A stretch of 41,182 nucleotides of DNA from Gammaproteobacteria bacterium (GTDB taxonomy: Bacteria > Pseudomonadota > Gammaproteobacteria > Enterobacterales > Psychrobiaceae), in the NCBI GenBank assembly GCA_013214965.1, contig JABSRU010000017.1:1-41182 (forward strand), in the 5' to 3' direction. A program made the position numbers and the translations under genes. This document shows positions 7,474 to 26,468 of the stretch, in pieces. The first letter of the stretch is position 1. Each line of letters begins with the position of its first letter. A model generated the notes under the pieces. That model searched no databases, was not told where the DNA came from, and was given only the letters and a program-made list of their open reading frames with translations.

Positions 7474-8739
7474 TTAAAAATAATAGCCAATATTAATGTT
7501 AAAACGTTTATTCCAATCATCAGAATCACTTGCCATTGAGCCGCCGATAAATGGTTGATTTTTTGCCATAATAAAATCTACGTAGGCATAAATACCGCCA
7601 GCGCTGATCGCAACACCTGTGACGTTCATTACCGTGTCTTGCTTTAGGTCGCCAGACTTGTCAGTGACTAGGTTGTAATCATTATAGAAAGTGAGGTTGG
7701 TAATCGGCCCGATAGCCACCGCTTTATTATAAGACAAATTTAAATTGTAGAGCGCGGCTTCTGCTGGAATAGTGTCATGGAAAGCCCAAGCTCCGACCGC
7801 GACAAAGTTCGAGCCGTTGTCCAAATCATACTCGTAGTTGGAATATTGGAACATGATCCCGATATTATCGATTTTACTTTTAACATGGAAAGCATAAGCG
7901 TTGTGATCGCCGACTGAACCATCTTTACCTTCAAGATCGCCAGACAGCAATGATACACCGACTTCAGTATTAGAGAAATTATAGGCATATCTGAGATTAA
8001 AGGTATTACTTTCAGCCATGGCTTGATCGGGTGCGCTCCAAATACCTTCATTGTTGTCAAAATCCCGGATCCCAACGACATCATAGGAATAACGCTTGGT
8101 TCGATCGCCAACATAGCCGTCAATGCCACCTTGCTCGTCATTTTTGAAGAATGCTAAACGAATATCATGCTGATCAAATTTACCGAGTAGCGAAACACCA
8201 GTATCAAAATCATCTTCCAAACCGGCATAAAAACCAGAGCTAAAAAAGAAGCTATTGGAGTTATAGTTAAGAATGCCAAAGGGCACCTGGGTGATCCCAA
8301 CTTGTCCCTGCCAATTCTCGTTAAACTGGTATCCGACATAGGCATGATGGATCACGTCCATGTATTGATACCAACGATATTGGGCTGATAAAGTCACGTC
8401 ACCAATGCTGCCGTTTACATCGAGACGAAAGGTGTCAAAATCAAAGTCACCGCCGCGGTCTTTATTGGCTTCGTTGTAATCTTCGTAACTATATTGAAAA
8501 CGTACCGCCCCGCCAATTTTGATCTTGGGCTTTAATGATGACGTGGTCTTTTTATTGGCTGTTGTTGCTTTTTTTAGTTCGGAAATTTGTTGTTCTAATT
8601 GTTCAATCCGCTGAGTTGTAGAGCCTTCAGCGGGTAGATAATCTTCAGCGGGTTGAGTGCCTTCAGCCCATACAGAAGTTGAAGTGGCTAGTAATAAGCT
8701 AAGCGCAGAAGTAACAAGCGAAGGTTTAAAAATTTTCAT
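7474..8739 (-). CDS. Outer-membrane porin with N-terminal coiled coil
   Basis: 421 aa. A signal peptide (MKIFKPSLV..., cleavage after SVWA near residue 25) is followed by a short coiled coil (IEQLEQQISELKKA). A beta-barrel of alternating strands follows, ending in the C-terminal aromatic signature (INIGYYF) needed for BAM insertion. This resembles gammaproteobacterial porins of the OprP/trimeric coiled-coil style. As last gene of the ALDH/M19/BCCT/RidA operon it probably lets the pathway substrate cross the outer membrane. I chose the second of two close ATGs because GGAG is 8 bases before it but only 2 before the first. Confidence 0.85.
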   Translation of the reverse strand: MKIFKPSLVTSALSLLLATSTSVWAEGTQPAEDYLPAEGSTTQRIEQLEQQISELKKATTANKKTTSSLKPKIKIGGAVRFQYSYEDYNEANKDRGGDFDFDTFRLDVNGSIGDVTLSAQYRWYQYMDVIHHAYVGYQFNENWQGQVGITQVPFGILNYNSNSFFFSSGFYAGLEDDFDTGVSLLGKFDQHDIRLAFFKNDEQGGIDGYVGDRTKRYSYDVVGIRDFDNNEGIWSAPDQAMAESNTFNLRYAYNFSNTEVGVSLLSGDLEGKDGSVGDHNAYAFHVKSKIDNIGIMFQYSNYEYDLDNGSNFVAVGAWAFHDTIPAEAALYNLNLSYNKAVAIGPITNLTFYNDYNLVTDKSGDLKQDTVMNVTGVAISAGGIYAYVDFIMAKNQPFIGGSMASDSDDWNKRFNINIGYYF

Positions 8740-8778
8740 GATCATATCTCCAATGGCTATTTATTTTTATTTTAATGA

Positions 8779-9153
8779 TTAAGGTACGGCAGCATACGCA
8801 ACCACTTCACACAGCATTTCTTCACGGGCAAGGCCAGCGACAATCATCGCTGCGCGATTTGGGTAAGGTGGTTGGAAGTACTCTGCATACACTTTATTAA
8901 AAGCAGGCAATTGGTCACGCGCCGTGACATAAATAAGCACCTGAGTGACATCATTCATGGTTAACTCAGCAGCTTCGATAGTATGTTTGAAATTTTCCAT
9001 CGTTTGGCGCGCCTGTGCTTCGATGCCTCCCTCGACCACATTACCTGCTTGATCGATAGGAATTTGTGCGGTTGATAGTGTGCCATTGGCAATGATGGCC
9101 CACTCTAATGGTGCTTTAGATGCAAAAAGATCAGTTTTAACGGCTTGTTTCAT
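8779..9153 (-). CDS. RidA/YjgF/UK114-family enamine-imine deaminase
   Basis: 124 aa, the usual RidA size. Conserved Arg100 (PYPNRAAM) and Glu116 (LCEVVAY) match the Arg and Glu of the RidA ligand pocket. Family members hydrolyse reactive enamines/imines released by PLP or flavin enzymes to ketoacids, and several subgroups are specialised for catabolic pathways. It is encoded between the BCCT transporter and the porin, so it likely handles an imine intermediate of that pathway rather than serving as the housekeeping RidA. Whether it has the canonical catalytic competence was not tested. Confidence 0.88.
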   Translation of the reverse strand: MKQAVKTDLFASKAPLEWAIIANGTLSTAQIPIDQAGNVVEGGIEAQARQTMENFKHTIEAAELTMNDVTQVLIYVTARDQLPAFNKVYAEYFQPPYPNRAAMIVAGLAREEMLCEVVAYAAVP

Positions 9154-9207: not shown

Positions 9208-10773
9208 TTATAAACCTTGATCCTTAGCCATTTGTTTGGCAATGCGAGGTGCCGTCCAAAGTGAAGGTAGTAATATTAGCGAGACAGGAACAGCAGTGAC
9301 GACAATGAAGGATTGCAGCGCTGAGATCCCGCCAGACCCAATTGAGATTAAGATCGCTGCCACAACTCCCATCATCACTCCCCAGAAAATTCGCACACCA
9401 CCGTTTGGATGATCAGTGCCGGTCATTACCATGGAGATTGAGTAGGTCATCGAGTCTCCGGTGGTTGCAACGAAAATAGTGGTTAAAATTAAGAACAATA
9501 TTGAAATGATTCCGCCAAATGGCAACTGCTCTGTAATCGCGAGTAATGCTGCAGGGAGATTAAAGCCGGTAAAGGGTTTTGAGATAACGCCAGGGTCAGC
9601 CAGTTCATAAAACAAGCCACTGCCGCCGACAATAGTAAACCAAAAACAAGTAACCACCGGAGCGACAATTGAAATGGTTAAGATCATTTGACGGATAGTA
9701 CGACCACGGGATATACGAGCAACAAACATCGCCATTAAAGGGCCATAACCTAAAAACCAACCCCAGAAAAATACGGTCCACCAGTCTAACCAGGCAGGAC
9801 TAGCACGGAAGGTTGCCATTGGCACGAACTCACTAATATAAATACCAAAGGAATGAACATAAGCATCAATAATGAATGCGGTTGGACCAAACAACAGAAT
9901 AAATGCCATAAGCAAGGTCGCTAATACAATATTAAAACTACTAAGGAGTTGAATACCGCGGGTGACACCGCTAACAGCTGAAAGGGTATAGATAACAATC
10001 AAACCAACTAGCACAGTCACTTGGGTGGTATAAGTGTTTGGGATGTCGAATAGTTTTTCGAGTCCGAAACTCACCTGTAAGCCAAGAAATCCGATCGGAC
10101 CAACAGTACCTGCGACCACGGCGATAACACAGACCGAATCAACAATAGCGCCAAAAGGACCGGTCATGACTTTATTGCCAAAGACTGGATAGAGTAGGGT
10201 GCGTGGTTTAAGTGGCAGTCCTTTTTCATAATGCAAATGCATTAATACTATGCCCGTTAGGCTACCTAATATCGCCCAAGCTAGGAATCCCCAATGCATA
10301 AAGCTTTGTGCTAGTGCATTATAAGCAGCATTGGTGGTGCCAGTTTCGCCACCAAATAATGGTGGCGGTGAGGTAAAATGGGCCATTGGCTCTGCCGCGG
10401 CCCAGAAGACACCACCACCAGCAAGCAACGTACACATGATGATTGAAATCCATTTAAAGGTTGTTAACTCAGGCTTTTTTAAGCCGCCGAGTACCACTGA
10501 ACCAGTACGCCCCGTGGTTAAAAAAAGTCCAATAACGAAAGTTAGCAATAGCAAAATTTGCCAATAGGCACCAAACAATTTAGTGGATGCGCCAAAGGCG
10601 CTGTTGACCCAGCTAGACATCAATTCAATGTCATATAATGCCAAAGCAACAAACAGTAAGATTGCGCCACCACTGATGAAAAAAACAGGCAAATCTACAT
10701 CGGCCAGCCATTGACCTTTTTTCTTGGCTGCACTCTCATTAGCAGCTATAGGGGTATTAATACTATTACTCAT
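9208..10773 (-). CDS. BCCT-family transporter (betaine/choline/carnitine type)
   Basis: 521 aa with about 12 membrane helices. BCCT hallmarks are present: the FVARISRGRTIRQMI segment after the substrate-site helix and a GGVFWAAAEPMAHF segment. The substrate box reads WGWFLGYGP rather than the tryptophan-rich WWISWSP-like form of most characterised members, so the substrate cannot be assigned. BCCT proteins move quaternary ammonium or sulfonium compounds by Na+ or H+ symport or by antiport. I chose the internal ATG preceded by AGGAG at 7 bases (MSNSINTP), which removes a 27-residue unsupported N-terminal extension. It is in a five-gene operon with ALDH and the M19 protein. Confidence 0.88.
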   Translation of the reverse strand: MSNSINTPIAANESAAKKKGQWLADVDLPVFFISGGAILLFVALALYDIELMSSWVNSAFGASTKLFGAYWQILLLLTFVIGLFLTTGRTGSVVLGGLKKPELTTFKWISIIMCTLLAGGGVFWAAAEPMAHFTSPPPLFGGETGTTNAAYNALAQSFMHWGFLAWAILGSLTGIVLMHLHYEKGLPLKPRTLLYPVFGNKVMTGPFGAIVDSVCVIAVVAGTVGPIGFLGLQVSFGLEKLFDIPNTYTTQVTVLVGLIVIYTLSAVSGVTRGIQLLSSFNIVLATLLMAFILLFGPTAFIIDAYVHSFGIYISEFVPMATFRASPAWLDWWTVFFWGWFLGYGPLMAMFVARISRGRTIRQMILTISIVAPVVTCFWFTIVGGSGLFYELADPGVISKPFTGFNLPAALLAITEQLPFGGIISILFLILTTIFVATTGDSMTYSISMVMTGTDHPNGGVRIFWGVMMGVVAAILISIGSGGISALQSFIVVTAVPVSLILLPSLWTAPRIAKQMAKDQGL

Positions 10774-10857
10774 TATCGACTCCTGTAATGGAACTCTTAT
10801 AATTGATTCATATTGGTGGTTTTCAGTGGAATTTGGGGCGTTACAGTCCCTCAACTC

Positions 10858-11868
10858 TTAGCTGGTGACCACGTTAGGTTGTAATGCGTCGTCAAGAAAA
10901 TTGAGCCAATTGAGCCCCATTACCTTCGCGACGTCTTGATCATTAAAGCCCCGTTCTTGCAAGCCTTTGGTGATGTTTGGAAAATCTCTGCTGTCACGAA
11001 ACCACGATAGTGGTCGCGGCCAGTCAGCGTTAGCTTTTGAGCCTTCGCCATAATCCATTTCTTTTGACCAGCGGCCATTACGCATCCATTCAAGAATGGA
11101 GAGCGGTTGGTCCTGACAGAGATCGGTCCCAATACCGATATGGCCTATCCCCATCAGATCGGCTGTGTTGGCGACCATGTCACAAAAATCATTAAGACTA
11201 CAGTCTGAGCCATGTTTAAGATGGAAAGGATAAAGACTAAAGCCTAACAATCCTCCCGACTGCGCTAACGACTTAAGTACCGTGTCGGATTTATTGCGTT
11301 TGGCGGCGTGAAAGCTATTTGGATTGGCGTGTGAAATAACGATTGGTCGCTGCGATAGTTCGATCGTTTCAAGAGTACTCCGCTCGGCGCTATGACTCAT
11401 ATCGATGACCATGCCCACGCGATTCATCTCTGCGATCACCTGTCGACCAAAGCGCGTGACGCCACTGTCGACTGCCTCATAACAACCGCTAGCTAATAAG
11501 CTTTGGTTGTTATAAGTGAGCTGCATAATCATTAAATTAAGTTCACGCATTATCTCAACCATACCAATGTCGTCTTCAACTGGTGAACAATTTTGAGCGC
11601 CAAACATAATGCCAACTTTGCCAAGTGTTTTCGCCAGCCGAATATCCCCAGCGTTTTTCACTGGCATAATCAGATCGCTGTGTTGTTCAAATTGGCGATT
11701 CCAATCGCTGATCCGCAGTAAAGTTTCACGGATCTGCTCATGGTAGACAATCGTGACATGAACCATGGTAACGCCGCCAGCTCGAAGCTGTTCGAAAATC
11801 GTGCGGTTCCAGTTCGAGTATTGCAGACCGTCAATGACAATAAGGTCTTTATGCAGCTGAGTATTCAT
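10858..11868 (-). CDS. Peptidase M19 (membrane dipeptidase)-like protein with altered metal site
   Basis: 336 aa, covering the TIM-barrel of renal-dipeptidase family M19 (VIDMSHSAERSTLE, PIVISHANP, IGIGTDLCQ). The two downstream histidine ligands (MSH, ISH) are present. The N-terminal HxD motif of classical members (DGHND-like) is replaced by DGLQYSNW, and the bridging-Glu region reads MFGAQN. It is therefore unlikely to be an ordinary di-zinc dipeptidase. M19-like proteins of this kind occur beside glycine-betaine/dimethylglycine genes in Pseudomonas (recalled, not checked). It starts 13 bp after the ALDH stop. The role may be hydrolysis of a non-peptide amide or ring, or non-catalytic. Confidence 0.82.
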   Translation of the reverse strand: MNTQLHKDLIVIDGLQYSNWNRTIFEQLRAGGVTMVHVTIVYHEQIRETLLRISDWNRQFEQHSDLIMPVKNAGDIRLAKTLGKVGIMFGAQNCSPVEDDIGMVEIMRELNLMIMQLTYNNQSLLASGCYEAVDSGVTRFGRQVIAEMNRVGMVIDMSHSAERSTLETIELSQRPIVISHANPNSFHAAKRNKSDTVLKSLAQSGGLLGFSLYPFHLKHGSDCSLNDFCDMVANTADLMGIGHIGIGTDLCQDQPLSILEWMRNGRWSKEMDYGEGSKANADWPRPLSWFRDSRDFPNITKGLQERGFNDQDVAKVMGLNWLNFLDDALQPNVVTS

Positions 11869-11881: not shown

Positions 11882-13324
11882 TTATGCGCGGATATAAGTC
11901 GTTTTAACGATGGTGTAAAACTCTTTGGCATAAGTGCCTTGCTCGCGCGAGCCAAAGCTTGAGTCTTTGCGACCACCAAATGGCACATGGTAATCAGTGC
12001 CAGCCGTTGGTAGATTTATCATGACGCAACCCGTTTTAGCACGACGCTTAAAATCGGTGGCATATTTTAATGAAGTAGTACAAATGCCACCCGTTAAACC
12101 AAAGTTGGTGTCATTAAGAGTCGCCAACGCTTCCTCGTAATCTTGAACTTTTATCACACAGGCGATTGGCGCAAATGCTTCATCGCGATTAATGGTCATG
12201 TCGTTGGTGGTTTCGGTGAAAAGTGCCGGCCGCATGTAATAGCCGTCGGTTTCTTCGGTGAGCACGTCGCCACCGTAAACGAGTTTTCCACCTTCTTCTT
12301 TAGCGATAGCCAAATAATTTAAGTTTTGTTCCATTTGACGGGCATCGGCGACTGCACCAATATGTACCCCTTCTTTAAGCGGATGGCCGACAACCAATTT
12401 CTTCATGCGGGCAATGACTTTTTCAACAAATAGATCATGAATACCAGCGGTAACGATCAAGCGAGAAGACGCAGTACATTTCTGGCCTGTACCACCATAA
12501 GCACCACCAACGGCACACTCGACAGCATTATCTAAATCGGCATCATCAAGTACTATTAAGGCATTCTTACTACCCATTTCTAATTGACATTTAACCAAGT
12601 TAACCGCAGTTGCTGCTGCTACTTTACGACCTGTTTCTAATGAGCCAGTGAAGGTGAGGGCGTTAATTTTTGTTGAGTGAATTAATACATCACCGACTTG
12701 CGCTCCGGGTCCCATCACTAAGTTAAATGTTCCGGCTGGTAAACCTTGACGCGAGATGATTTCGGTCAGTGCCCAGGCACTGGCTGGCACTTGGTTGGCG
12801 GGTTTAAATACGATTGAGTTACCAAAAGCCAATGCTGGCGCTATTTTCCATGCACCGGTAGCGGTTGGGAAATTCCAAGGGGTAATGATACCGACAACAC
12901 CGACTGGTTCGCGACGGGTTTCTATTTCGACGCCGGGGCGCACTGAATCGGCCGTTTCGCCCATTTGGCGTAGTACTTCTGCGGCGTAATAGTGAAAGAA
13001 TTGACCTGAACGGTACGTTTCACCAACGCCTTCTGCCAGTGTTTTACCTTCTTCTCGAGCGAGTAATTTACCCAGTTCATCTTTACGGGCAATTAGTTCA
13101 TCGCCAATGGCCATTAATACTGAGTAGCGTTGTTCTAACCCACTTTCTTGCCAAGCTAGCTGGCCTTGAATAGCGGCATCGATAGCGGCTTCTGTTTGTG
13201 CTTTGTCGGCTTGAGCGTAGTGACCGATAATGTCACTGGTATCTGCTGGGCTAATATTGATAATTGAGCTAGCGCCGTCAACCCATTGACCGTTGATGTA
13301 GTTACTAAAAATTGAATCTGACAT
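11882..13324 (-). CDS. NAD(P)+-dependent aldehyde dehydrogenase, semialdehyde dehydrogenase-like
   Basis: 480 aa, full-length ALDH. Catalytic Cys283 (GQKCTASSR), general-base Glu249 (LEMGSKN) and the oxyanion Asn151 (PWNFP) are all present. LEMGSKNALIVLDDADLDNA and the C-terminal REQGTYAKEFYT segment resemble 2-oxoglutarate semialdehyde dehydrogenases and related dicarboxylic semialdehyde enzymes. That is a resemblance only. It is the first gene of the minus-strand operon; GGAGG sits 5-6 bases before the ATG. It probably oxidises the aldehyde produced at the end of the catabolic route. Confidence 0.9.
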   Translation of the reverse strand: MSDSIFSNYINGQWVDGASSIINISPADTSDIIGHYAQADKAQTEAAIDAAIQGQLAWQESGLEQRYSVLMAIGDELIARKDELGKLLAREEGKTLAEGVGETYRSGQFFHYYAAEVLRQMGETADSVRPGVEIETRREPVGVVGIITPWNFPTATGAWKIAPALAFGNSIVFKPANQVPASAWALTEIISRQGLPAGTFNLVMGPGAQVGDVLIHSTKINALTFTGSLETGRKVAAATAVNLVKCQLEMGSKNALIVLDDADLDNAVECAVGGAYGGTGQKCTASSRLIVTAGIHDLFVEKVIARMKKLVVGHPLKEGVHIGAVADARQMEQNLNYLAIAKEEGGKLVYGGDVLTEETDGYYMRPALFTETTNDMTINRDEAFAPIACVIKVQDYEEALATLNDTNFGLTGGICTTSLKYATDFKRRAKTGCVMINLPTAGTDYHVPFGGRKDSSFGSREQGTYAKEFYTIVKTTYIRA

Positions 13325-13417: not shown

Positions 13418-14311
13418 ATGATGGCAGAATTTAAGATGGCTCAGCTCAGACATTTTGTGTGGGTTGTTGAATATAAAGGCTTTCATGCTGCAGCCGAGAA
13501 GGCGTGTCGTACTCAACCGGCCATTTCATTATCGATAAAAGATCTGGAAAATAAATTAGGGACGGCGGTTTTTGAAAAGCGTAATGCAAGAACAACATTG
13601 ATTGAATTAACCCCATTTGGTCAAGAATTTTTACCTAAAGCTAAAGAGTTAATCGCGCATCACGACAGGCTATCTCTTGATATGTCCTTATTGCGCGAAC
13701 ATAAAACCGGCCATCTTCGAATTGCTTCGGTGCCTTCGATTGCGTGTCGGATGTTACCGGATGTGTTGTCACAATTTGTGAAAAATCTCCCCGATCTTCA
13801 TGTTAGTTTTTATGACGATAATTCTGAAGCAGTATTGCGGATGGTCGAAAATCAACAAGTTGATCTCGGCATTGCCAGTTTATGGCATCAAGATGAGCAC
13901 AGTGATAAGACGTTCACCCCGATCTGGGAAGATCGTATCGGGGTTGTTTGCCGCTTCGATCACCCCTTGGCCGATGCAAATGAGTTACATTGGAAAGCAT
14001 TACGTCAGCAGCGCCTGATTCGTAATGGTACTTCGCGTTTGTTAGAAGATAGTGAGGCTGCACCGTTGTTAGAGGATTCGCAATTTTATATTTCCAGCAT
14101 GATGTCATTGATTGCAATGCTTGAAGCTGGCGTGGGGATCACGACATTACCTTGGTTTGCTTTTCCTAAAGATAGTGCGACTTTACGTTTTATTCCATTG
14201 AGCGAACCCCAAGTGATACGTCATATTGGTCTGGTGCAACTGAGTGACAAATCATTATCGCCAGCGGCACAGGCGCTGGCTGATTTCATTATCGAGAGTA
14301 CGAAAAAATAA
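13418..14311 (+). CDS. LysR-family transcriptional regulator
   Basis: 297 aa. The N-terminal winged helix-turn-helix (LRHFVWVVEYKGFHAAAEKACRTQPAISLSIKDLE, here split as residues ~8-45) is typical of LysR regulators and is followed by the two-lobed effector-binding domain (GHLRIASVPSIA, WEDRIGVVCRFDHPL, GVGITTLPWFAF). It is divergent from the ALDH-M19-BCCT-RidA-porin operon and upstream of the 573-aa/DUF3726 pair, the usual placement of a pathway-specific LysR activator. Two adjacent ATGs are possible starts; the first is listed. Confidence 0.93.
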   Translation: MMAEFKMAQLRHFVWVVEYKGFHAAAEKACRTQPAISLSIKDLENKLGTAVFEKRNARTTLIELTPFGQEFLPKAKELIAHHDRLSLDMSLLREHKTGHLRIASVPSIACRMLPDVLSQFVKNLPDLHVSFYDDNSEAVLRMVENQQVDLGIASLWHQDEHSDKTFTPIWEDRIGVVCRFDHPLADANELHWKALRQQRLIRNGTSRLLEDSEAAPLLEDSQFYISSMMSLIAMLEAGVGITTLPWFAFPKDSATLRFIPLSEPQVIRHIGLVQLSDKSLSPAAQALADFIIESTKK

Positions 14312-14471: not shown

Positions 14472-16193
14472 ATGACCTCTGATGCCGCTATTCAAACATC
14501 ACTGCGCGGGGACACAGCCATGCTATTGCGCCCTGCCAAACAAGTGATGGATATTGAACGATTAGGTGCCTTTCATCAAAGTCGATTGAGCTTTATGCGG
14601 ACGTTAGTACGACGCATATTCCGCGAACGTTGGCAAATTGAACCCGTGCGATTTGAACTAGATCCAAAAGGTTATGGTACTGTGGTTTATGAAGTTAGCG
14701 CGCCTCATGGCATCTTTAGTTTTGTATTGTTTTCATCATTTCTTTCTGATGATGAGCGTAATGATCGGGTGATTGCGACGAAATGGGATTTAACAATGGC
14801 GCTAGTGGAAGGGCGAGTTGATAAGGCTTATGTTGATCATTTGGCGCAGAATGTGCCAAAGCAAGAAGCCGGACGTCTCGATTCGCGCGTTTTTGTGTTA
14901 TCACGGGCTAATCGTAGCGCCCGTAATTTTAATTATGTCGTCGATCAACTTGCCGCAGGTAAACAACCTGATATCGCTAAAATTGCTGAAGTTGGTTATT
15001 TGTACCGCACAACCGCCGTTTATGGCAGTGGCAAGTTAGGGATGGCAGATTGGGATAAAGTGTGTGATAAGCATAAGGATTTTTCCCGTCCATTTGCTGG
15101 GGAAATGTTTGTCTGTTGGATGTTACGTAATTTTAGTCTATTGCAGGTCGAACATATTGCACAGCATCAGTCGTCTAACACCTATCAACCGATGCAAGCT
15201 GACATTAAACGTTACTTTGGAATTGGTAATTCAACGGGATTGGGGATGGCACCTTATCTGGTGAATCATCCGCAATTGATTAATCAATGGATTGAAATGC
15301 GGGAATTGGCCTTGGCACGTGTTCGAACGCTCGGTGGTGTTAATCCGCTAATTAAACAAAATTTGATCGATTTAATTAACCGCTGTTCGCTCCATACCCG
15401 CCAAACCATTACTGAAGATGAGCGACAAACTGGACACAATCAACAGATGATCGAAGATTTAGCGTTGATGAAGCGTCAAGTTGAGGCGGATCTTGAGTCC
15501 TTTGATGCGCTTGTAACGTGGAGCGAGCAACATTGCTTAGTACCAGCCCAAGAAATGTTGGTGTCAATTTTATTGGAAATGCATCCAGAACTGGTCGATG
15601 AATTAGAAGACTTCCACACGGTCGAAGAGCTTCTCGACTTGGAGCCCTTAATGCCACTGTCGGAGTTAAAAATGATGATTGAGCAACGTTATGATTGGGC
15701 GCTCGCAATCGATTTTGACGCTGAAGGTTCGCGTGAAACTTACTGGTATCGCTCAGAGGAAAAAATGGAGCCTCGACTTGGTAGTATCGCTGATGTGGAA
15801 GGGAAGAAAAAACACATGGACTTGGCCGTAGGGTTTGCAGTACGCCGATGCTACGATTTACTCGGTGAATATATCAACGTTCATCGGAATCATACGACCG
15901 CTGACTTTATGGTGCAACAACCCAAATTACGGGGCACTGTGCGCCGAATTCAAACGATGAATCATTGTATTTATGGTGATATTCAAGCGAATCTATTAGA
16001 TAAAAATATTTTACCAATGCATTTGTTACGTTGTAAATTGGCCTTTTTCGGGGTCAGTAAATTTGACCCACGTTCTCGATTATGGGTGCGTAATACGATG
16101 TTTCAAGGCGCGCCGTTGCTTGACGAAATTGGTACGACATTTAGCGATGATTGGTTTATGCCGATCGCGCCAACTCTCTCTTCAACAGTCTAG
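14472..16193 (+). CDS. Uncharacterised conserved 573-aa protein of a catabolic island
   Basis: 573 aa, no signal peptide or membrane helices. Likely conserved motifs are YRTTAVYGSGKLGMAD (residues ~180-195), PFAGEMFVCWMLRNFSL and GIGNSTGLGMAP (250-261), which look like ligand-binding loops. The C-terminal half is helical, with an acidic stretch near 380-400. It resembles large hypothetical proteins I recall from alpha- and gammaproteobacterial genomes, but I know no assigned function. AAGGAA lies 7 bases before the ATG. It is followed 14 bp later by the DUF3726-like gene and preceded by a predicted LysR operator shared with lysR. This ties it to the BCCT/ALDH pathway, perhaps as the key missing enzyme. 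Confidence 0.85.
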   Translation: MTSDAAIQTSLRGDTAMLLRPAKQVMDIERLGAFHQSRLSFMRTLVRRIFRERWQIEPVRFELDPKGYGTVVYEVSAPHGIFSFVLFSSFLSDDERNDRVIATKWDLTMALVEGRVDKAYVDHLAQNVPKQEAGRLDSRVFVLSRANRSARNFNYVVDQLAAGKQPDIAKIAEVGYLYRTTAVYGSGKLGMADWDKVCDKHKDFSRPFAGEMFVCWMLRNFSLLQVEHIAQHQSSNTYQPMQADIKRYFGIGNSTGLGMAPYLVNHPQLINQWIEMRELALARVRTLGGVNPLIKQNLIDLINRCSLHTRQTITEDERQTGHNQQMIEDLALMKRQVEADLESFDALVTWSEQHCLVPAQEMLVSILLEMHPELVDELEDFHTVEELLDLEPLMPLSELKMMIEQRYDWALAIDFDAEGSRETYWYRSEEKMEPRLGSIADVEGKKKHMDLAVGFAVRRCYDLLGEYINVHRNHTTADFMVQQPKLRGTVRRIQTMNHCIYGDIQANLLDKNILPMHLLRCKLAFFGVSKFDPRSRLWVRNTMFQGAPLLDEIGTTFSDDWFMPIAPTLSSTV

Positions 16194-16207
16194 GAAGGAA
16201 CGCGATA

Positions 16208-16945
16208 ATGCATATTTCAATGAATGAACTAAAAGCAGCACTGCGTCGATGTTTTGAAGCTAGCGGCTATTTTGTTGGTAACTACGAAGATGCGGCCAAT
16301 ATGATTGTATGGTTGGAAAAGCACGGCCTAAAAGGGCTAGAAGAGCTAGAACATGCGCTAGCGTACATCGCTGCTGACCAAAATAAACCCCAAAGCAAGA
16401 TTATTTACGAAGACAGCACATCGGCAACTATTGATGCTCATGGTCGAAGCTCACTTAATTGCGTTGCGGCCGCCGTTGATTTGGCTCAAGCCAAAGCTCT
16501 AGCGAGTGGTATTGCAACGATCACGGTACATAATTGCCACAATCGGATGTTTATTTTAAAGGCACTGACAGATTGTGGACGTCGCGGTATTAGCGCGGCG
16601 GCTTATTGGCAAAATGGCAGTGAAATCATTACCGAACACACTGCCGCTATTCGTTCCGGGCAGCGTTACCCCAATTATAGCCAAGCTATCACAAACCTAG
16701 CCTGCAGTGGTGAAGATAAGCAGGCATTAACCATTATATGTAGTTCGAGGGTTGATTTGACCTCGTCATTGCAAAGTACTGAGCAGCAATCTATTAGCGC
16801 GCAACAAATTGCAGAACATAAAGCACTAACTGTTGAACTAGGGATAGAGATTGACAAGAAATTGTGGGCTGAAATTAATCAATTGGGCACCGGTATTTTG
16901 GTTGAAAATACCGAACGTTCTCGTTTAGATGCTGGCGGTCGCTAA
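16208..16945 (+). CDS. DUF3726-like / LDH2-type oxidoreductase-like protein
   Basis: 245 aa. The N-terminus (MNELKAALRRCFEASGY... ANMIVWLEKHGLKGLEEL) fits the DUF3726 pattern I recall. The central region (IDAHGRSSLNCVAAAV, ALASGIATITVHNCHNR, RGISAAAYWQNG) echoes the malate/L-lactate dehydrogenase LDH2 fold. LDH2 members include imine reductases such as piperideine/pyrroline-2-carboxylate reductase. It is shorter than true LDH2 enzymes (~340 aa), so it may be a subunit. The ATG preceded by AAGGAA was chosen over an upstream start overlapping the 573-aa gene. The two genes are clearly co-transcribed and may form a complex. Confidence 0.7.
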   Translation: MHISMNELKAALRRCFEASGYFVGNYEDAANMIVWLEKHGLKGLEELEHALAYIAADQNKPQSKIIYEDSTSATIDAHGRSSLNCVAAAVDLAQAKALASGIATITVHNCHNRMFILKALTDCGRRGISAAAYWQNGSEIITEHTAAIRSGQRYPNYSQAITNLACSGEDKQALTIICSSRVDLTSSLQSTEQQSISAQQIAEHKALTVELGIEIDKKLWAEINQLGTGILVENTERSRLDAGGR

Positions 16946-17065: not shown

Positions 17066-17627
17066 TTGCGGCTCGCTTTTATTTTCTTGTATCATCTGTT
17101 TGTTGGTGGGGGTTTCTACTATGCCAATTTGAACAGTACTTCTCTGGATGAATTAGGCTTGCCAGCATCAATCGGTGGTTATACTAGGAGTATTGTCGGA
17201 ATTAGTGGCATGGTGGCTGGTTTTATTACCGGTCGGATAGCCGATAAAATGGAGCATGCAATTGCCCTATTGGTGATTTTTAGTTGTTTATTCATGCGTC
17301 TATTGAGCTTTATTTATGATCCAACCCGCTTTGCTTTTGTCGCCGGATTTGGTTGTGGCATGATGTGTTTTCCGGTTTTCCGGTTTTCCAGTTTTGGGGA
17401 TTTTGGCTGGCTGGATCCGACAACATTACTCTTCAACGGCCACGATGCAAATAAGCAGTGACTTTAGGTCTTGGTGGTGTCTTAGGAAATGTGTTAGCGG
17501 GCTATATTCGCGATATTACGGGCTCACTGGCACTTGTTTACAATAGCGGTGCTATTACTCGTTATATTCACGGTGTTTATATTGCATTAAAGCCAAAAGA
17601 CGCATTATGCAAACAATGCGTCTTTTG
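17066..17627 (+). pseudogene. Decayed MFS transporter fragment
   Basis: An initial frame from a TTG codon encodes ~130 aa. It resembles the C-terminal half of a monocarboxylate-type MFS protein (GLPASIGGYTRSIVGISGMVAGFITGRIADKM, like helices 7-8). It stops at 17461. The family sequence continues in other frames: SSTATMQISS near 17430-17460, then GLGGVLGNVLAGYIRDITGS from about 17468, typical of the last helices. The N-terminal half is missing and at least one frameshift is present. It is a remnant, possibly a former second transporter of the adjacent catabolic island. Confidence 0.7.
17595..17626. terminator. Bidirectional rho-independent terminator
   Basis: AAAAGACGCATT, an 8-base loop, and AATGCGTCTTTT form a perfect 12-bp stem with A and T runs at either end. 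It sits between the converging MFS remnant and the minus-strand membrane protein gene, so it can act in both directions. Confidence 0.75.
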
Positions 17628-17639: not shown

Positions 17640-19562
17640 TTAATTCAGTTTTTCTGCTGGCGATTTATCTTCCTGATCTTGCTCGTTTCGTAAAAAACCT
17701 GCTGCTTGTTCTTGTTGTTGATGATCAAGCTGTACCGGATTATGACGTGATGCTTGATTTACTTTAAGAATGTTTTCAGCGTGTTGTAAATCAGCAGCAT
17801 TGGTAAAGCCTGCAATATTTTCACGGCCTTTTAAGAAGCTGCGGATCTCATCAATGATTGTGTTGAGTTCATCATCATTCTTGTTCATCGACATTACATA
17901 ACGTGGCATTTCAACATTTTGACTGCCAGCTGTTGCATAAGTACTACTGACAATACGTGAGCTAACCACCCACGGTGTAATTGACGATTTGACCACCACG
18001 TTTTCACTGCGAGTGGAATCATGAATCGACATTCCAGTTGATACTTTAGATTCTGAGAAAGTACCTTCGGTTTTAAAATACATCAGCAAGGATTCAAATT
18101 GCAATTCAGCATAAAAGACATTAGCGAAACTCTCGAGCATCCGACCAATTGTGGTGATGATTTGCCACATAAATAATGTGCTGACAAAGCCAACAACTAA
18201 TATCGATGATTGCGCAATAATGGGTTGTAATTCTTCTATCGCCCGTTGATTGTTACCGCTGATGGTTGGTGGATTAGCGATAAGATTTTTAACAAAATCG
18301 ATGATCAGACCAATTTGATCGGCCATGGCGAAAAATAGTAATGCGCCGATAACTAATAACAGCTGACCCGCAATAGCAGAGATGGTTCGGGCACCTTTAA
18401 AGGCCGGAGAATGATTTGTTTCTTTATATTGAGGTTGAGTCTCTATCAGTAATTCACCTTCGAATGAACCTTTGCCTTGGGATTGCTCCTTAAGTTGAGG
18501 ATCGAATGCGCGGTAAGTACGGTTTGGAATTTCCTTATAACGTCGATTGGCCAAAATGATATTTTCGACATTGATGAAAATTTCATTGGGATGAACTGAT
18601 TCTTGTAGATTTTCTCTAAATTCACTGACTTCTGTGACAGGATTTGCCGCTTTGCTCCGCACGGTTACCATATATAAAACCAAGCCACTGGTGAGTACCC
18701 CTAGCACCAGCAATAGCATTAGAGATGGCCATGCTGAAAATATTTTGGCATCGACAAATAGTTGGCTTACTTGCTCGCTGTTGCCAAATTTTTGGCTGAA
18801 AAATTGATAACCAAAACCAATCACCACAGGAAATACAATTGAAAAGGCGATAATCTTTGCGAGGCTAGCAGCGCCAGCACTCTGAAGTTCTTTGACTCGG
18901 TTTATTCGCACGGCAGCCGCTGCACTGCGCCAAGCGGCAATTAAATAAATCAGTAACAAAATCGAAAAAGCTGGAATAATAATATGACCCGCTTGACCAG
19001 CTAAACCACTTGATGAAACAAAATAGGTTAGGCCAAATGCAATAAAAGCAACCAAGGTTGTTGCTAACACGGATACCACTTCTTGCAGCACATTACGTAC
19101 TGGGTAGGGCAAGAAAATCAATTTGGGAAAAATTGAATGGACAAAGCGACCCATCCAGCCTTTTGGCTCGGTAAATGTCGCATTTTTTCGACCCATCAAC
19201 ATCGATTCTAGCGTGTTCGACTTGTAGGCAAGGACACCAGAGCGCTGTTCTTGCTTGGCATTATCGGCTTCACTAGGGGTGTGGTTAAAAGCGAGGGAAG
19301 ATGGTACTGAGCGACCAACAAAAAACTTAAATAAATAGAAAATTCCGCTGCCTAAACGACGTAAACCAGCAACTAACAACGCTAATCCCATAATCGCGTA
19401 GACCCAAGCCTGAATCAGATCTTGCTCGATGATGGTGGTGGTTTTAAAAATACTGTATAAACCGATTGCCGCGATTATGCCACCGCCAATGGCGCGGATC
19501 ATACCTTCTTGTTTAAATGGGTTGTTAATCCCTAACCCTGCCGAACCAAAATCATAGGCCAC
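17640..19562 (-). CDS. Large polytopic membrane protein of unknown function
   Basis: 640 aa. I count about eight hydrophobic helices: two near residues 22-65, two near 155-210, two near 230-295 and two near 390-465. There is a soluble loop around 300-385 and a hydrophilic C-terminal tail of ~170 residues (DDELNTIIDEIRSFLKGRENIAGF). No transporter or enzyme motif is recognised. The start is a GTG with GAAGGAGA at 7 bases. It stands alone between a terminator and the cobD operon, which ends ~70 bases upstream, so it is not obviously linked to B12 synthesis though read-through is possible. Confidence 0.75.
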   Translation of the reverse strand: MAYDFGSAGLGINNPFKQEGMIRAIGGGIIAAIGLYSIFKTTTIIEQDLIQAWVYAIMGLALLVAGLRRLGSGIFYLFKFFVGRSVPSSLAFNHTPSEADNAKQEQRSGVLAYKSNTLESMLMGRKNATFTEPKGWMGRFVHSIFPKLIFLPYPVRNVLQEVVSVLATTLVAFIAFGLTYFVSSSGLAGQAGHIIIPAFSILLLIYLIAAWRSAAAAVRINRVKELQSAGAASLAKIIAFSIVFPVVIGFGYQFFSQKFGNSEQVSQLFVDAKIFSAWPSLMLLLVLGVLTSGLVLYMVTVRSKAANPVTEVSEFRENLQESVHPNEIFINVENIILANRRYKEIPNRTYRAFDPQLKEQSQGKGSFEGELLIETQPQYKETNHSPAFKGARTISAIAGQLLLVIGALLFFAMADQIGLIIDFVKNLIANPPTISGNNQRAIEELQPIIAQSSILVVGFVSTLFMWQIITTIGRMLESFANVFYAELQFESLLMYFKTEGTFSESKVSTGMSIHDSTRSENVVVKSSITPWVVSSRIVSSTYATAGSQNVEMPRYVMSMNKNDDELNTIIDEIRSFLKGRENIAGFTNAADLQHAENILKVNQASRHNPVQLDHQQQEQAAGFLRNEQDQEDKSPAEKLN

Positions 19563-19634: not shown

Positions 19635-20630
19635 TCAAATTTCTTGGAGGATGTTTCTTAACTGATTTAATTCAGTATCTGTTGTAATGCCAAACCGCAG
19701 GGCATTATTTTCATCACACAATCGAACATAGACGCCAGCGTGACACAATTGTTCGAATATTTCAGGAGCGTTAGTCAATGGCACGGTTTTAAACAGTAAA
19801 TTACCGGAAATAGTGACCGAAAAATGCTGCATTAACAATTGTTCTAGTTGCTTTGATAATTGTTGCAAGGCTGCGAGTTGTACTTGCTGCCAAGGGGTAT
19901 CTTTTAGCGCTTGGGTCGCGACAAATTGCGCCGGACCATTGACTTCCCACGGGCTCGACATTGCCATTAACCGTGCTAACCAAATTGGAGACGCACTAAC
20001 AAAACCAAGCCGAATGCCTGCTAAGCCAAAAAATTTTCCGACTGACCGAAAAACGAAAAGATGTTGGTTAGAGGTTTGCCCTATTAAGGATTGGGTTGGG
20101 CTGATAACATCCATAAATGCTTCATCAATGACCAGCCAGCCATCGAGGTTTTTAAGGTGGCTCAATAAATGATTAAGTTGCTGCTTGGAATATAGCTCAC
20201 CGGTTGGATTATTGGGATTTATCACAATGACCACACATTGCGCGGTTAATTGCGCTGGCTGTGGTAGTTGGTGATAGTGGCATATTTGATAGCCGTTATC
20301 GCGCCATGCCTTTTCATGTTCTTTATAACCAACCGCAGGGAGCCATACTTTCAATTTTTCCGCGAGATATTGGCGGCATAACAAGGGTAATTTACTGATA
20401 ATACTCTGGCTACCGCTGGTTGCCATAATATGATCGCAGTCGTAATAATGGCTTGCTGCGGTTAGCAGATCGGCGCTGGGTTGCGGCAATTGCTGCCACA
20501 CCGCCACCGGAATCTCAGGGATCGGATAAACCAAGGGGCTAATGCCGGTGGACAAATCCAGCCATTGCGCTTGAGGTATCTGATACAGCTCAGCTATTTT
20601 GTCTAACTGCCCACCGTGAATTAATGCCAT
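19635..20630 (-). CDS. cobD: Threonine-phosphate decarboxylase-like PLP enzyme (cobalamin side chain)
   Basis: 331 aa, fold-type I aminotransferase. Motifs: TSGSQSI (71-77), NPNNPTG (138-144), DEAFMD (169-174) and PLP Lys199 (SVGKFFGLAGIRLGF). The LDLSTGISPLVYP opening and GG.LD.IA N-terminus are typical of CobD/CobC, which decarboxylates L-threonine phosphate to (R)-1-aminopropan-2-ol phosphate for the nucleotide loop. The ATG overlaps the cbiB stop (TAATG) with AGGA 8 bases upstream, so I rejected an upstream in-frame start inside cbiB. Context with cbiB, which uses its product, makes the call strong. Confidence 0.9.
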   Translation of the reverse strand: MALIHGGQLDKIAELYQIPQAQWLDLSTGISPLVYPIPEIPVAVWQQLPQPSADLLTAASHYYDCDHIMATSGSQSIISKLPLLCRQYLAEKLKVWLPAVGYKEHEKAWRDNGYQICHYHQLPQPAQLTAQCVVIVINPNNPTGELYSKQQLNHLLSHLKNLDGWLVIDEAFMDVISPTQSLIGQTSNQHLFVFRSVGKFFGLAGIRLGFVSASPIWLARLMAMSSPWEVNGPAQFVATQALKDTPWQQVQLAALQQLSKQLEQLLMQHFSVTISGNLLFKTVPLTNAPEIFEQLCHAGVYVRLCDENNALRFGITTDTELNQLRNILQEI

Positions 20631-21550
20631 TAAATCAGTCCTAATGTTAGTTGAATGAGGGCGTAACAACTGATAAAAATAATCAGCGCGTTAGTGACTA
20701 AAGATAAACTCGGTTCGATGTCACTCATTGATACTTCACACCCAGCGCCTAACGTAACCGATTCAATCGTTTTACCATGATAACTAGCGGTGCCGCCCAG
20801 GCTAATACCCAAGACACTGGCACCCGCTGCCATCACCCAACCGCCATTAAGGCTTTTATATTGTCGCCCTTGATCCCGGGCATTACGTAATGCCGGAAGC
20901 AATTTCCCCTGCACAGCAAAAAGAACACTGGTTACTTTAGCACTAGGCCAGCCAAGTAAGTCGTCCACTCTTGCTGCACACCAGCCAAAGTAGATAAAAC
21001 GCGGACTTTTATAACCCCACATTGCATCTAAGGTGTTGGCTAACCTGTGTAGTATCATCAACGGTGCCCCACCAATTGCAAACCAAAATACCGTGGCAAT
21101 CACCGCATCATGACCATTTTCTAACATCGACTCAGTCGTGGCACGAGCTATTTGTTGTTCGCTTAACTGATCTGTATTGCGACTGACAATATAGGAGCAA
21201 TAGTGACGGGCTTGCGTGATATCGCCAGCAGCGAGCGGGATTAAAATTTGTCGAGCGTGTTTTAATAAGCTGTTATAGCCGATAGCCGCATATAAAAGGA
21301 GGCAATCAAGCAGCCAAAATAGCCAGTTGTCCTGATGTAGCCAATAAACTAATAATGGCAAAGGCATTACTAGTAATAACCAGCAGCTCACTCCAATGAT
21401 GCGAGCTATCATCGGAGAGTGAGCGTGATTAAAGCGTTGTTCTAATCGATTGGCGAGCATGCCAAAACCAACTAGTGGGTGATAACGATTAGGCTCACCA
21501 AAAAGGTAATCGAGTAAACAGCCAGTGATTAAAATCAAGACGCTAATCAT
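20630..21550 (-). CDS. cbiB: Adenosylcobinamide-phosphate synthase CbiB
   Basis: 306 aa, polytopic inner-membrane protein. It opens with the family signature DYLFGEPNRYHPLVGFG and continues with SRNTDQLSEQQIARATTESM-type sequence, GHDAVIATVFWFAIGG and a conserved R.DD..G.P.A segment. CbiB joins aminopropanol phosphate (or aminopropanol) to adenosylcobyric acid. The start overlaps the end of the phosphatase gene by 8 bp and its stop overlaps the cobD start, so the three are one translationally coupled operon. Confidence 0.95.
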   Translation of the reverse strand: MISVLILITGCLLDYLFGEPNRYHPLVGFGMLANRLEQRFNHAHSPMIARIIGVSCWLLLVMPLPLLVYWLHQDNWLFWLLDCLLLYAAIGYNSLLKHARQILIPLAAGDITQARHYCSYIVSRNTDQLSEQQIARATTESMLENGHDAVIATVFWFAIGGAPLMILHRLANTLDAMWGYKSPRFIYFGWCAARVDDLLGWPSAKVTSVLFAVQGKLLPALRNARDQGRQYKSLNGGWVMAAGASVLGISLGGTASYHGKTIESVTLGAGCEVSMSDIEPSLSLVTNALIIFISCYALIQLTLGLI

Positions 21551-22193
21551 TAGTAACCACGGAAAATGTATTTGATGGCTGGTGGTAATCGATGGCGAAT
21601 ATACAACAATTGACTAATTCGTCGCTGGGCTTAGGAAAGTTAAACGCGAGATAAAATGAAAGAAAAGAGCGAAGAATATCGCCATGGCTAACCACTAAAA
21701 TGTTAGTTTTAGCGCTATTGTTGGCGATGTTTATTAAAGAGTTATGGAAGCGTTTGGCACTCTCTTGTGCTGATTCTCCCTGAGGCGGTGCTAGGTTAGT
21801 GACATCTAAAAATATATCATTAAATGATTTACACAGCTTAGCTTCGCTCATCAGCATGCCTTGCCATTGACCAAAATGACGTTCCATTAATTGCTCATCT
21901 ACAAACTGGCGGCATAATAATTGTTGTTGAATAATTTCTGCAGTTAGTAATGCTCGTGGTAATGGTGAGCTCACTATTAATTCGATGTCATAACTGGTGA
22001 GTGATTTTGCTAATTGATTCGCTTGGTTAATGCCATTTTGAGTTAATGGGCTATCGAGTTGCCCTTGTAATTTTTGTTGCTTGTTCCATTGAGTTTCACC
22101 ATGGCGAGCGAGAAAAAAACGAGTTGTTGTTAAGGGGGTAATAAAAAACTCCGCAAAATATAAGGGCAGCAATGAGTGGCGGCACTCTAACAT
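21543..22193 (-). CDS. cobC: Histidine phosphatase, probable alpha-ribazole phosphatase
   Basis: About 216 aa from the listed ATG. It has the phosphoglycerate-mutase-type core: FFLARHGETQWN (catalytic His in RHG), SSPLPRALLTAEII, ERHFGQWQG and VVSHGDILRSFL (second His). Alpha-ribazole-5'-phosphatase removes the phosphate of the lower-ligand nucleotide; the cbiB-cobD context supports this over a general phosphatase. The start is uncertain: none of the candidate ATGs has a clear Shine-Dalgarno, and the family core begins ~25 residues after the chosen Met. Upstream in-frame extension would run into the divergent small gene and is unlikely. Confidence 0.8.
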   Translation of the reverse strand: MLECRHSLLPLYFAEFFITPLTTTRFFLARHGETQWNKQQKLQGQLDSPLTQNGINQANQLAKSLTSYDIELIVSSPLPRALLTAEIIQQQLLCRQFVDEQLMERHFGQWQGMLMSEAKLCKSFNDIFLDVTNLAPPQGESAQESAKRFHNSLINIANNSAKTNILVVSHGDILRSFLSFYLAFNFPKPSDELVNCCIFAIDYHQPSNTFSVVTND

Positions 22194-22279
22194 ATTTATT
22201 GTTTTGTTGCGCAATAGAGCGATGCACTTAGTTGATTTTTCTATTATCATGGGTAGCTTATTGAGGGGAAGCGCGGTTG

Positions 22280-22600
22280 ATGGGTGAATTAGAACAATCT
22301 GGATTAGAGCAAGCGTTGTATCGCGCGACATTAAGTTTGTTATCAACGGTACTGGTTGAACATCGCGTTAGCGAGACCCATTATTATGTTCATGATGGCC
22401 AATTTACGTTTAGTTTAGCGGCGATATATCATCAGATCAAAACAGTAGAGACCATTAGTTATAATCAGTATCGGCGAATGATATTTAGTAGCTCACTCAA
22501 TCAAGATTTATTACCATATCAGTTAAAAGTCATCAGTCATGGTATTGAGTCGTCGACAAATACTCCGTTGTATCGCCTTGTTAGGTTCACAGGACACTAA
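22280..22600 (+). CDS. Small hypothetical protein upstream of cobO
   Basis: 106 aa, soluble, with a mixed helix/strand pattern (LEQALYRATLSLLSTV, ETHYYVHDGQFTFSLAAIY). I do not recognise the family. Reality is supported by GAGGGGAA about 9 bases before the ATG and by close coupling to cobO: the cobO ATG begins 1 bp after this stop and the cobO ribosome-binding AGGA is inside this gene. A role in B12 metabolism is inferred only from position. It is divergent from the cobC-cbiB-cobD operon. Confidence 0.6.
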   Translation: MGELEQSGLEQALYRATLSLLSTVLVEHRVSETHYYVHDGQFTFSLAAIYHQIKTVETISYNQYRRMIFSSSLNQDLLPYQLKVISHGIESSTNTPLYRLVRFTGH

Positions 22601-22601
22601 A

Positions 22602-23195
22602 ATGAATGAAGTAGAAAAACACCTCAAAAAATCTCAAAATCGTAAAAAAAAGGTTGATCAAGGGATCGCGAAAGCCAAGATTGAGCGTGGTATCATGTTG
22701 GTGATAACAGGAAATGGCAAAGGTAAGTCGACCGCCGGTTTTGGGATGGTGACTCGCTGTGTCGGTCATGGTAAAAAAGCCGCTGTGGTGCAATTTATTA
22801 AAGGAAAATGGGCCTGTGGTGAGCGTGACTTGTTGGAAGAACATGGCGTGCCGTTTGCTGTGATGGGCACTGGATTTACGTGGGAAACTCAAAATGCTGA
22901 TCTTGATCGTCAAGCTGCGCTTAAAGTCTGGCAGCAGGCTAAACAATTTTTGGCTGATCCTAGTATTGATCTAGTGCTACTCGATGAGCTCACTTATATG
23001 CTGAGCTACGATTACCTACCCAAAGAAGAAGTATTGGCGGCACTGGCTAATCGCCCTTATGAGCAGTCGGTCGCTGTGACGGGTCGTCGTGCTAGTGATG
23101 AATTAATTGAAATGGCTGATACCGTCAGTGAGATCAACGATATCAAGCATGCTTTTCGCGCGGGAATTAAAATACGTCAAGGTATTGATTGGTAA
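22602..23195 (+). CDS. cobO: Cob(I)yrinic acid a,c-diamide adenosyltransferase
   Basis: 197 aa. It has a P-loop GNGKGKST (residues 37-44), the KGKWACGERDLLE motif, LLDELTYML and the VTGRRASDELIEMADTVSEI ending typical of CobO/CobA/BtuR adenosyltransferases. It transfers the adenosyl group of ATP to Co(I) corrinoids. The N-terminal Lys-rich tail is normal for this family. I chose the ATG preceded by AGGA over an upstream in-frame start. It lies 2-5 bp from bluB and probably shares its transcript. Confidence 0.95.
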   Translation: MNEVEKHLKKSQNRKKKVDQGIAKAKIERGIMLVITGNGKGKSTAGFGMVTRCVGHGKKAAVVQFIKGKWACGERDLLEEHGVPFAVMGTGFTWETQNADLDRQAALKVWQQAKQFLADPSIDLVLLDELTYMLSYDYLPKEEVLAALANRPYEQSVAVTGRRASDELIEMADTVSEINDIKHAFRAGIKIRQGIDW

Positions 23196-23197
23196 TT

Positions 23198-23842: not shown

Positions 23843-23872
23843 TTTAGTTATACCTTTGTTTTTAATGATATA

Positions 23873-23900
23873 TTGACTTGCGTTGATTTCATGGTATTTT
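23873..23900 (+). promoter_or_regulatory. Candidate sigma70 promoter of the cobalt/cobalamin operon
   Basis: TTGACT (23873-23878) and TATTTT (23895-23900) with a 16-base spacer lie just before the riboswitch. Transcription would begin near 23907, a few bases before the aptamer. Confidence 0.45.
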
Positions 23901-23907
23901 GACCGCG

Positions 23908-26388: not shown

Positions 26389-26468
26389 TCATTCGTATTG
26401 CGGTTTACTTCATCTGGGGTTACCGCATAATGACAATCAATCAACATTGAGTTTAAAAGGGTTTTATT

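Follow-up and report, generated by a model that had tools for sequence, protein, structure and literature searches.

The contig JABSRU010000017.1 of a gammaproteobacterium of the family Psychrobiaceae (assembly GCA_013214965.1), whose whole stretch of 41,182 nucleotides is called the window here, has a gene for a 573-amino-acid (aa) protein of no recognised family followed by a gene for a DUF3726 protein. I propose, with a probability of roughly 0.55, that these two proteins form a two-subunit enzyme of a conserved catabolic cluster and that this enzyme makes the first attack on an N-methylated pyridine-ring betaine, homarine (N-methylpicolinate) being the likeliest. A preliminary description, made from the letters of the window, had already suggested the pair as the missing first enzyme beside genes for a BCCT transporter, an aldehyde dehydrogenase (ALDH), an M19-like protein, RidA, and a porin. 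The two open reading frames (ORFs) named there, 14472-16193 (+) and 16151-16945 (+), are both present. Pfam searches confirmed RidA, BCCT, M19, and ALDH, and a porin-like protein weakly, and a LysR-type regulator gene was also found, lying between the ALDH gene and the 573-aa gene. The coordinates are listed in Table 1.

Is the association of the two proteins common? In a scan of species genomes, 285 candidate stretches were obtained, 184 of which encode a relative of the 573-aa protein, and the best 80 of the 184 were kept (L007-L086). The 109 loci compared in this study comprise these 80, two sets of picked plasmid regions (5 and 4), and 20 picked regions from the class of Leisingera; L135 and L142 are the same place, and 94 of the 109 have long flanks. 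It was found that an ORF of at least 150 aa lies on the same strand within 160 bases after the 573-aa gene in 101 of the 109 loci. Among the remaining eight, two lie at contig ends (L009, L039), two encode fusions of the 573-aa-type and DUF3726 domains (799 aa in L059 and 814 aa in L088), and the L137 protein (868 aa, without a Pfam match) is, solely from its length, a probable distant fusion. L143 has an over-extended ORF with an annotated partner, and in L091 and L127 the partner was not resolved by the ORF rule. The earlier observation is confirmed, and the 184 places with a relative together with this frequency of pairing go beyond chance. The two genes nearly always occur together and are sometimes fused. 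Since the pair persists where the M19 and ALDH genes are gone (L036, L133), the two proteins are taken as one functional unit.

The hosts of the best 80 relatives are mostly marine gammaproteobacteria (Colwellia, Pseudoalteromonas, Oceanospirillaceae, Vibrio, Photobacterium, and Psychrobacter), together with one Leisingera and a metagenome-assembled genome of Helicobacteraceae. Besides the genome of the window, only 5 of 38 related genomes, including 2 of 8 in the same genus, have the 573-aa protein, and thus it is an accessory trait. Matches were found in 168 of 72,556 plasmid records (64 Sinorhizobium, 58 Phaeobacter, and one Natrinema), in 53 of 385 sampled genomes of the class of Leisingera, and in 176 of 394 genomes of its family. 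Four matching genomes in this class are 1.2-1.4 Mb in size with a neighbourhood G+C of 0.28-0.36 (L121-L124), and their hosts look like streamlined ocean bacteria. More distant relatives also exist. A distant branch includes L141 (8232-19686, Sinorhizobium meliloti pSymB, 29% identical to the window protein) and L151 (8067-12437, Variovorax, 31% identical to the L135 protein), both with an IclR gene, the pair, and an M19 gene; S. meliloti also has an aminotransferase, a semialdehyde dehydrogenase, and a RidA gene. On a plasmid of the haloarchaeon Natrinema versiforme (L149, 9091-11621), a relative 28.9% identical to the L135 protein is followed by a 317-aa Ldh_2-like partner, with ALDH and BCCT genes nearby.

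The 573-aa protein contains both glycine-rich motifs pointed out earlier (GSGKLGMAD and GIGNSTGLGMAP), and its description as a protein of no recognised family holds. It matched no Pfam or NCBIfam family at E<=1 and no PDB sequence at E<=10. An alignment of 57 rows was made from the window protein and 56 homologues with 40-77% identity to it. Pfam searches with the 57 members gave scattered matches only, none of them in more than four members; the sole strong match, DUF3726 in a single member, presumably comes from the L059 fusion. The best PDB sequence match of the 57-row profile was an unrelated T-cell receptor (E 0.37). The AlphaFold2 model built from this alignment is confident, with a predicted local distance difference test score (pLDDT) of 88.4 and a predicted template modelling score (pTM) of 0.89. 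Nevertheless, a Foldseek search of the model against 350,542 PDB chains returned no match at E<=0.001 (best E 1.0, template modelling score (TM) 0.09), and none was found among viral models (best E 0.21); the comparison covered these two collections, so that relatives known only from predicted cellular structures could be missed. In the 57 rows, 117 positions are invariant; they are rich in Gly and Arg and include seven Trp. Invariant His occurs only at positions 266 and 308, and an invariant Cys is absent. A Rieske, iron-sulphur, or haem-thiolate enzyme was rejected as the identity of the protein because of the lack of an invariant Cys. The loop 184-192 is partly invariant, yet its pLDDT is below 50; in the model, it might be a lid closing on a ligand.

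The start codon of the partner gene is better placed at ATG 16208 than at 16151, since homologues aligned there share the start M-x-[IV]-S-x-N-E. The resulting protein has 245 aa, and the gap after the 573-aa gene is 14 bases. The partner belongs to DUF3726 (PF12525; 81.7 bits against a gathering threshold of 22.1), while its match to Ldh_2 (PF02615) stays below the threshold (36.3 against 38.8 bits) and covers profile positions 1-130 of 333 only. Modelled alone, without the 573-aa protein, it gave an AlphaFold2 model with pLDDT 86.5 and pTM 0.82. Foldseek found 27 PDB matches at E<=0.001, among them type-2 malate/lactate, ureidoglycolate, and sulfolactate dehydrogenases and delta1-piperideine-2-carboxylate reductase, and the best was 3i0p (E 8.4e-12, TM 0.68 by query and 0.48 by target, root-mean-square deviation 6.9). 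Thus, the earlier label LDH2-like is borne out for the overall fold, in a shortened form, and Pfam places the protein in DUF3726. A profile comparison of DUF3726 with full-length Ldh_2 rows aligned 122 columns on the N-terminal side only (probability 59%, E 9e-5). In comparison with the Ldh_2 family, DUF3726 is about 90-115 residues shorter than the matched structures, lacks the GTNP motif, and has a conserved C-terminal tail. Because GTNP occurs in none of 47 DUF3726 rows, as against 12 of 12 full-length Ldh_2 rows, the partner does not, judging from its sequence, appear to be a functional dehydrogenase. A His beside the invariant Gly40 was found in just 22 of the 47 rows.

In the C-terminal tail, S238, A242, and G243 are kept in all 47 rows, and the tail is poorly ordered in the isolated model (block-mean pLDDT 55 and 50). 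In 99 of 101 partner ORFs, ranging from those of gammaproteobacteria to those of the 1.2-1.4 Mb genomes in the class of Leisingera, the 20 C-terminal residues include GAG or AGG. The two exceptions are L141 and L031, and in L031 the ORF rule chose another ORF than the one in the alignment. The tail is kept at the very end of the L088 fusion and is not found in the distant L137. Such a flexible yet conserved tail, attached to a degenerate dehydrogenase, suggests that the partner is a structural subunit whose tail reaches into the 573-aa protein.

The conservation of the neighbourhood was assessed with thresholds of at least 200 bits for M19 and 500 for ALDH, both within 9 kb of the pair, and of at least 190 bits for LysR and 180 for BCCT. 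Homologues of the pair do not regularly occur without the neighbours named in the preliminary description: an M19 gene is near in 92 of the 94 long loci and an ALDH gene in 82, with L036 and L133 as the exceptions for both genes. The ALDH threshold was also not reached in L123-L127, L129, L134, L137, L140, and L141, the last of which has an annotated semialdehyde dehydrogenase. In a scan of 105 loci that included contig ends, a LysR gene was near the pair in 87 and a BCCT gene in 71, and some loci have annotated ATP-binding cassette (ABC) or tripartite ATP-independent periplasmic (TRAP) transporters. Thus, the pair belongs to a set with ALDH, M19, RidA, and LysR, and in many loci with BCCT. 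The M19 gene is about as constant as the pair, which would suit an M19-like hydrolase that makes the first attack itself, the pair acting later or assisting as a chaperone or activator. This is very improbable, however, since L036 and L133 have the pair without M19 and since a protein with so many invariant positions is unlikely to be a mere helper. Moreover, the 573-aa protein occurs only once in the genome of the window, whereas the only other M19 gene found there, on contig C112, is of the same altered type described below; thus, M19 chemistry is not specific to this pathway. By elimination, I infer that the pair is the likeliest first, ring-attacking enzyme.

What does the cluster do at the other end of the pathway? 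RidA genes (at least 30 bits) and genes for a full-length Ldh_2 protein (at least 100 bits) were counted within 9 kb in the 109 loci. It was revealed that 68 loci have RidA only, 15 have Ldh_2 only, and none has both; in the other 26, of which seven are short contigs, neither was found. The RidA gene of L141 lies almost at the 9-kb limit. This mutual exclusion of RidA and Ldh_2 is a new result. On a quick tree of 77 rows, from which 25 near-copies, 7 short loci with neither gene, and L137 were left out, the fewest-change count is 7 RidA/Ldh_2 switches, or 15 when 'neither' is treated as a third state; the tree has SH-aLRT (approximate likelihood ratio) support only, 24 of its 74 inner branches are open, several branches are long, and the composition of some rows is odd. 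Both states were found in gammaproteobacterial and alphaproteobacterial rows, and the sister rows L139 and L135 differ. In the gammaproteobacterium Marinomonas vulgaris (L033), Ldh_2 follows BCCT, the place of RidA in the window. In Phaeobacter and Sulfitobacter, RidA adjoins LysR instead, and thus RidA was probably recruited more than once.

The cluster of the window is the RidA variant. Its RidA is well above the gathering threshold (75.2 against 27.3 bits), and the Arg of the P-x-R motif, presumably catalytic, aligns with an Arg of 2csl. No full-length Ldh_2 match above the cut-off was found in the genome, which is 95.7% complete. RidA proteins and Ldh_2 enzymes both act on 2-imino acids: the former hydrolyse these and enamino acids, and some of the latter reduce imines, cyclic or N-alkyl, that derive from 2-oxo acids. 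Since genes replacing each other most simply share one intermediate, the exclusion points to such an imine with two fates. A subunit of the SoxA type or of the N-methylglutamate dehydrogenase (Mgd) type (at least 300 bits; the NCBIfam models do not separate Mgd from sarcosine oxidase) was found in the Ldh_2-type loci L089 and L135 (annotated in L142) and in the 'neither' loci L124, L125, and, cut by the locus edge, L123. None was found in the 66 RidA-type loci scanned, none is annotated in the other two (L141 and L144), and none lies near the pair in the window. The cluster is present twice on plasmid pPGA1_262 of Phaeobacter inhibens DSM 17395 (L087, L148), once with RidA and once beside sarcosine-oxidase/Mgd/SoxBDAG-type genes, and this plasmid is a natural test system. 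In the 'neither' clusters L040 and L043, an ORF (5408-6403 and 5324-6319, respectively) adjoins LysR; that of L043 encodes a pyridoxal phosphate (PLP) enzyme of the PALP family and that of L040 looks similar, possibly a third way of ending the pathway.

The remaining enzymes of the cluster have been characterised by their nearest relatives. The M19-like protein belongs to PF01244 (271 bits against a threshold of 26), and this part of the earlier label stands. It has the two His and one Asp in common with the renal dipeptidase family, but a Gln (position 92), invariant in seven aligned rows, lies opposite the Glu of 3id7 and 5lx0, which presumably bridges two metals. The nearest PDB structure, the amidohydrolase 2i5g, has the same Gln change. 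Near the N-terminus, the window protein reads DGLQY, and its alignments to classical dipeptidases, in which I take DGHND to be the N-terminal His-x-Asp metal-ligand motif, begin after that stretch. In view of the invariant Gln, an ordinary dipeptidase was rejected, and a formamide or enamide hydrolase would fit better. The best NCBIfam models of the ALDH are NF042993, alpha-ketoglutaric semialdehyde dehydrogenase (486 bits, cut-off 770), and 2,5-dioxovalerate dehydrogenase (463 bits), both under the cut-off; they would suit a semialdehyde of five carbons that leads to glutamate or 2-oxoglutarate. The best NCBIfam model of the LysR protein is PsrA, an L-proline-binding regulator (159.5 bits, under the cut-off of 540).

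Homarine is a diatom osmolyte that is taken up fast by the roseobacter Ruegeria pomeroyi, according to PMC12817926, and PMC13390433 refers to a 2026 publication on a conserved homarine pathway of bacteria with Mgd as a participant. Judging from the gene content, homarine is probably the substrate of the window cluster. This substrate was not on the list of the preliminary description. In the Ldh_2-type clusters, the order is LysR / ALDH-M19-(BCCT)-573-DUF3726-Ldh_2, which amounts to a regulator and five enzymes. A homarine catabolic pathway conserved in environmental bacteria is the subject of Ferrer-Gonzalez et al. (2026, Nat Microbiol 11:1531). The operon is reportedly named homABCDER and present in Rhodobacterales, SAR11, and SAR116, and the gene count of the Ldh_2-type clusters agrees with this name. 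In its conservation among environmental bacteria, its link to Mgd (PMC13390433), and its reported five enzymes and regulator, the hom pathway resembles the clusters analysed here; the window cluster differs in that RidA takes the place of the full-length Ldh_2 reductase and that Mgd-type genes do not adjoin. This cluster is probably a variant of the hom pathway, and the pair most likely helps to open homarine or a similar ring-shaped nutrient from marine algae.

A pathway may be proposed as follows. The betaine would be taken up by BCCT. The ring would then be dearomatised and broken beside the nitrogen by the 573-aa protein in complex with DUF3726, whose conserved tail would lie close to the active site. 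The product would be an N-formyl-N-methyl amino semialdehyde, for which the atom count requires O2 and NAD(P)H. The five-carbon semialdehyde would then be oxidised by ALDH, and the one-carbon unit would be taken off as formate by the M19-like hydrolase, leaving 2-(methylimino)glutarate or its enamine. In this balance, homarine, O2, and NAD(P)H would yield C7H9NO4, which ALDH and M19 would convert to formate and 2-(methylimino)glutarate. Full-length Ldh_2 would reduce the intermediate to N-methylglutamate, to be demethylated by Mgd; in the branch of the window, RidA would hydrolyse it to 2-oxoglutarate and methylamine. I consider homarine as the substrate more likely than an O2-dependent cleavage by the pair. 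The same logic, from ring cleavage of an N-methylpyridinium carboxylate to an N-methylformamide through aldehyde oxidation to deformylation, is reportedly followed by TgnABCDE in the trigonelline degradation of Acinetobacter. However, TgnA, a flavin oxygenase, and TgnB, a flavin reductase, reportedly belong to known families, in contrast to the 573-aa protein, whose model has no PDB fold match. Literature searches on DUF3726, pyridinium ring cleavage, a link between the S. meliloti pSymB genes and trigonelline, and an M19 relative in Pseudomonas yielded nothing useful.

Alternatively, the pair, or the pair with M19, might add water to the pyridinium ring and open it without O2 to 2-(methylamino)muconate semialdehyde; ALDH would then form N-methyl-2-aminomuconate, from which RidA would free methylamine, as in 2-aminomuconate catabolism. 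Such a route would need no oxygenase or electron donor, and the annotation of L087-L090 and L141-L144 shows none interspersed with the conserved genes, although no systematic search was made. Its atom balance closes with one ALDH and one RidA, and the ALDH matches PDB 2-aminomuconate 6-semialdehyde dehydrogenases at E of about 1e-74 to 1e-75, no better than many other structures. I nevertheless regard this route as improbable, as it leaves M19 without a clear job and the best curated model of the ALDH is a five-carbon enzyme. In addition, its product has six carbons, whereas the link between Mgd and homarine given in PMC13390433 implies the five-carbon N-methylglutamate.

It is also conceivable, though unlikely, that the pair serves another betaine or cyclic N-methyl compound, such as trigonelline or proline betaine, and that the homarine operon is something else. 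The relatives in soil rhizobia, Variovorax, and a haloarchaeon would agree with this, as would the Rieske-type and FAD-dependent oxidoreductase genes that adjoin some clusters. On the other hand, the frequency of the pair in marine taxa and in the family of Leisingera, the betaine-type transporters, the location of some loci near Mgd/Sox-type tetramers, and the gene count reported for hom (a regulator and five enzymes) fit homarine.

Several observations weigh against ring cleavage of homarine by the pair as proposed above. The identity of the hom operon with the cluster rests on the operon name and the gene count. In S. meliloti pSymB, the semialdehyde dehydrogenase is annotated as succinate-type and an aminotransferase adjoins; this distant setting makes other substrates likely in the family. 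No cofactor site was recognisable in the 573-aa protein, and with no invariant Cys and only two invariant His, its alignment gives no direct support to a cleavage that depends on O2 and NAD(P)H. In L090, L142, L148, and L124, genes for Rieske-type oxygenases are located at most about 10 kb from the pair, and these oxygenases could attack the substrate in those strains. The long loci L036 and L133 have the pair without the two enzymes of the middle steps, and about a quarter of all loci (26/109) have neither RidA nor Ldh_2 nearby. Finally, the genome of the window itself has two SoxBDAG clusters on another contig, and thus a RidA-type genome need not lack such demethylases. These are similarly arranged soxBDAG-purU clusters on C112 (L099, 6227-12362; L100, 3321-9443), about 16 kb apart and some 34 kb or more from the second M19-like gene.

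Should the proposal be correct, the enzyme that opens this common marine metabolite would have a model without a PDB counterpart, and from the RidA/Ldh_2 exchange one could predict in which marine bacteria methylamine is set free and in which the nitrogen is retained as glutamate. The 573-aa enzyme without a fold match and the RidA variant with a different predicted end product are of interest. More tentatively, the pair may found a new enzyme class with a new fold, opening N-methylpyridinium rings with a Ser/Ala-Gly tail in the active site, in pathways whose last step was exchanged several times (the 7 switches on the quick tree), so that an algal metabolite ends as methylamine or as N-methylglutamate.

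Table 1. Genes of the proposed catabolic cluster in the window
Feature	Coordinates	Strand	Remarks
573-aa protein, ATG start	14472..16193	+	proposed large subunit of the first, ring-attacking enzyme; family and fold unassigned
DUF3726 partner, 245 aa, shortened Ldh_2 fold, conserved C-terminal tail	16208..16945	+	proposed small subunit
LysR-type regulator of the cluster	13418..14311	+	PF00126/PF03466
Aldehyde dehydrogenase (ALDH)	11882..13324	-	PF00171
M19-like hydrolase, altered metal site	10858..11868	-	PF01244, 271 bits
BCCT betaine-type transporter	9208..10854	-	PF02028, 510 bits
RidA family protein, variant-defining gene	8779..9153	-	PF01042, 75.2 bits
Outer-membrane porin-like protein	7474..8745	-	PF07396; possible entry channel; weak assignment, putative member of the cluster

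The porin-like protein matches PF07396 with 27.6 bits (cut-off 20.9) over residues 81-164 only, and a relative of it was also found at the edge of L014. Directly after the pair, a 131-aa ORF (17066-17461) has a partial match to a major facilitator superfamily (MFS) profile (positions 207-313 of 347) below the Pfam cut-off and is probably the remnant of a transporter gene. A scan for promoters and terminators gave sites no more numerous than in shuffled sequences. Three more proteins of the window have no Pfam family at E<=0.001 (1109-2830, 573 aa; 2840-4483, 547 aa; 17640-19562, 640 aa). Further downstream, Pfam delineated a cobalamin-type region (19635-35835) unrelated to the pair, in a scan that left out the ORFs between 35.8 and 38.1 kb. 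It encodes a class I/II aminotransferase, CobD/CbiB, a histidine phosphatase, BtuR/CobO, a nitroreductase, a TonB receptor, CbtA, an AAA/VWA protein, a CobB/CobQ-like protein, CbiD, and TP methylases, and the AAA/VWA gene (27421-29142) may encode a chelatase-like subunit.

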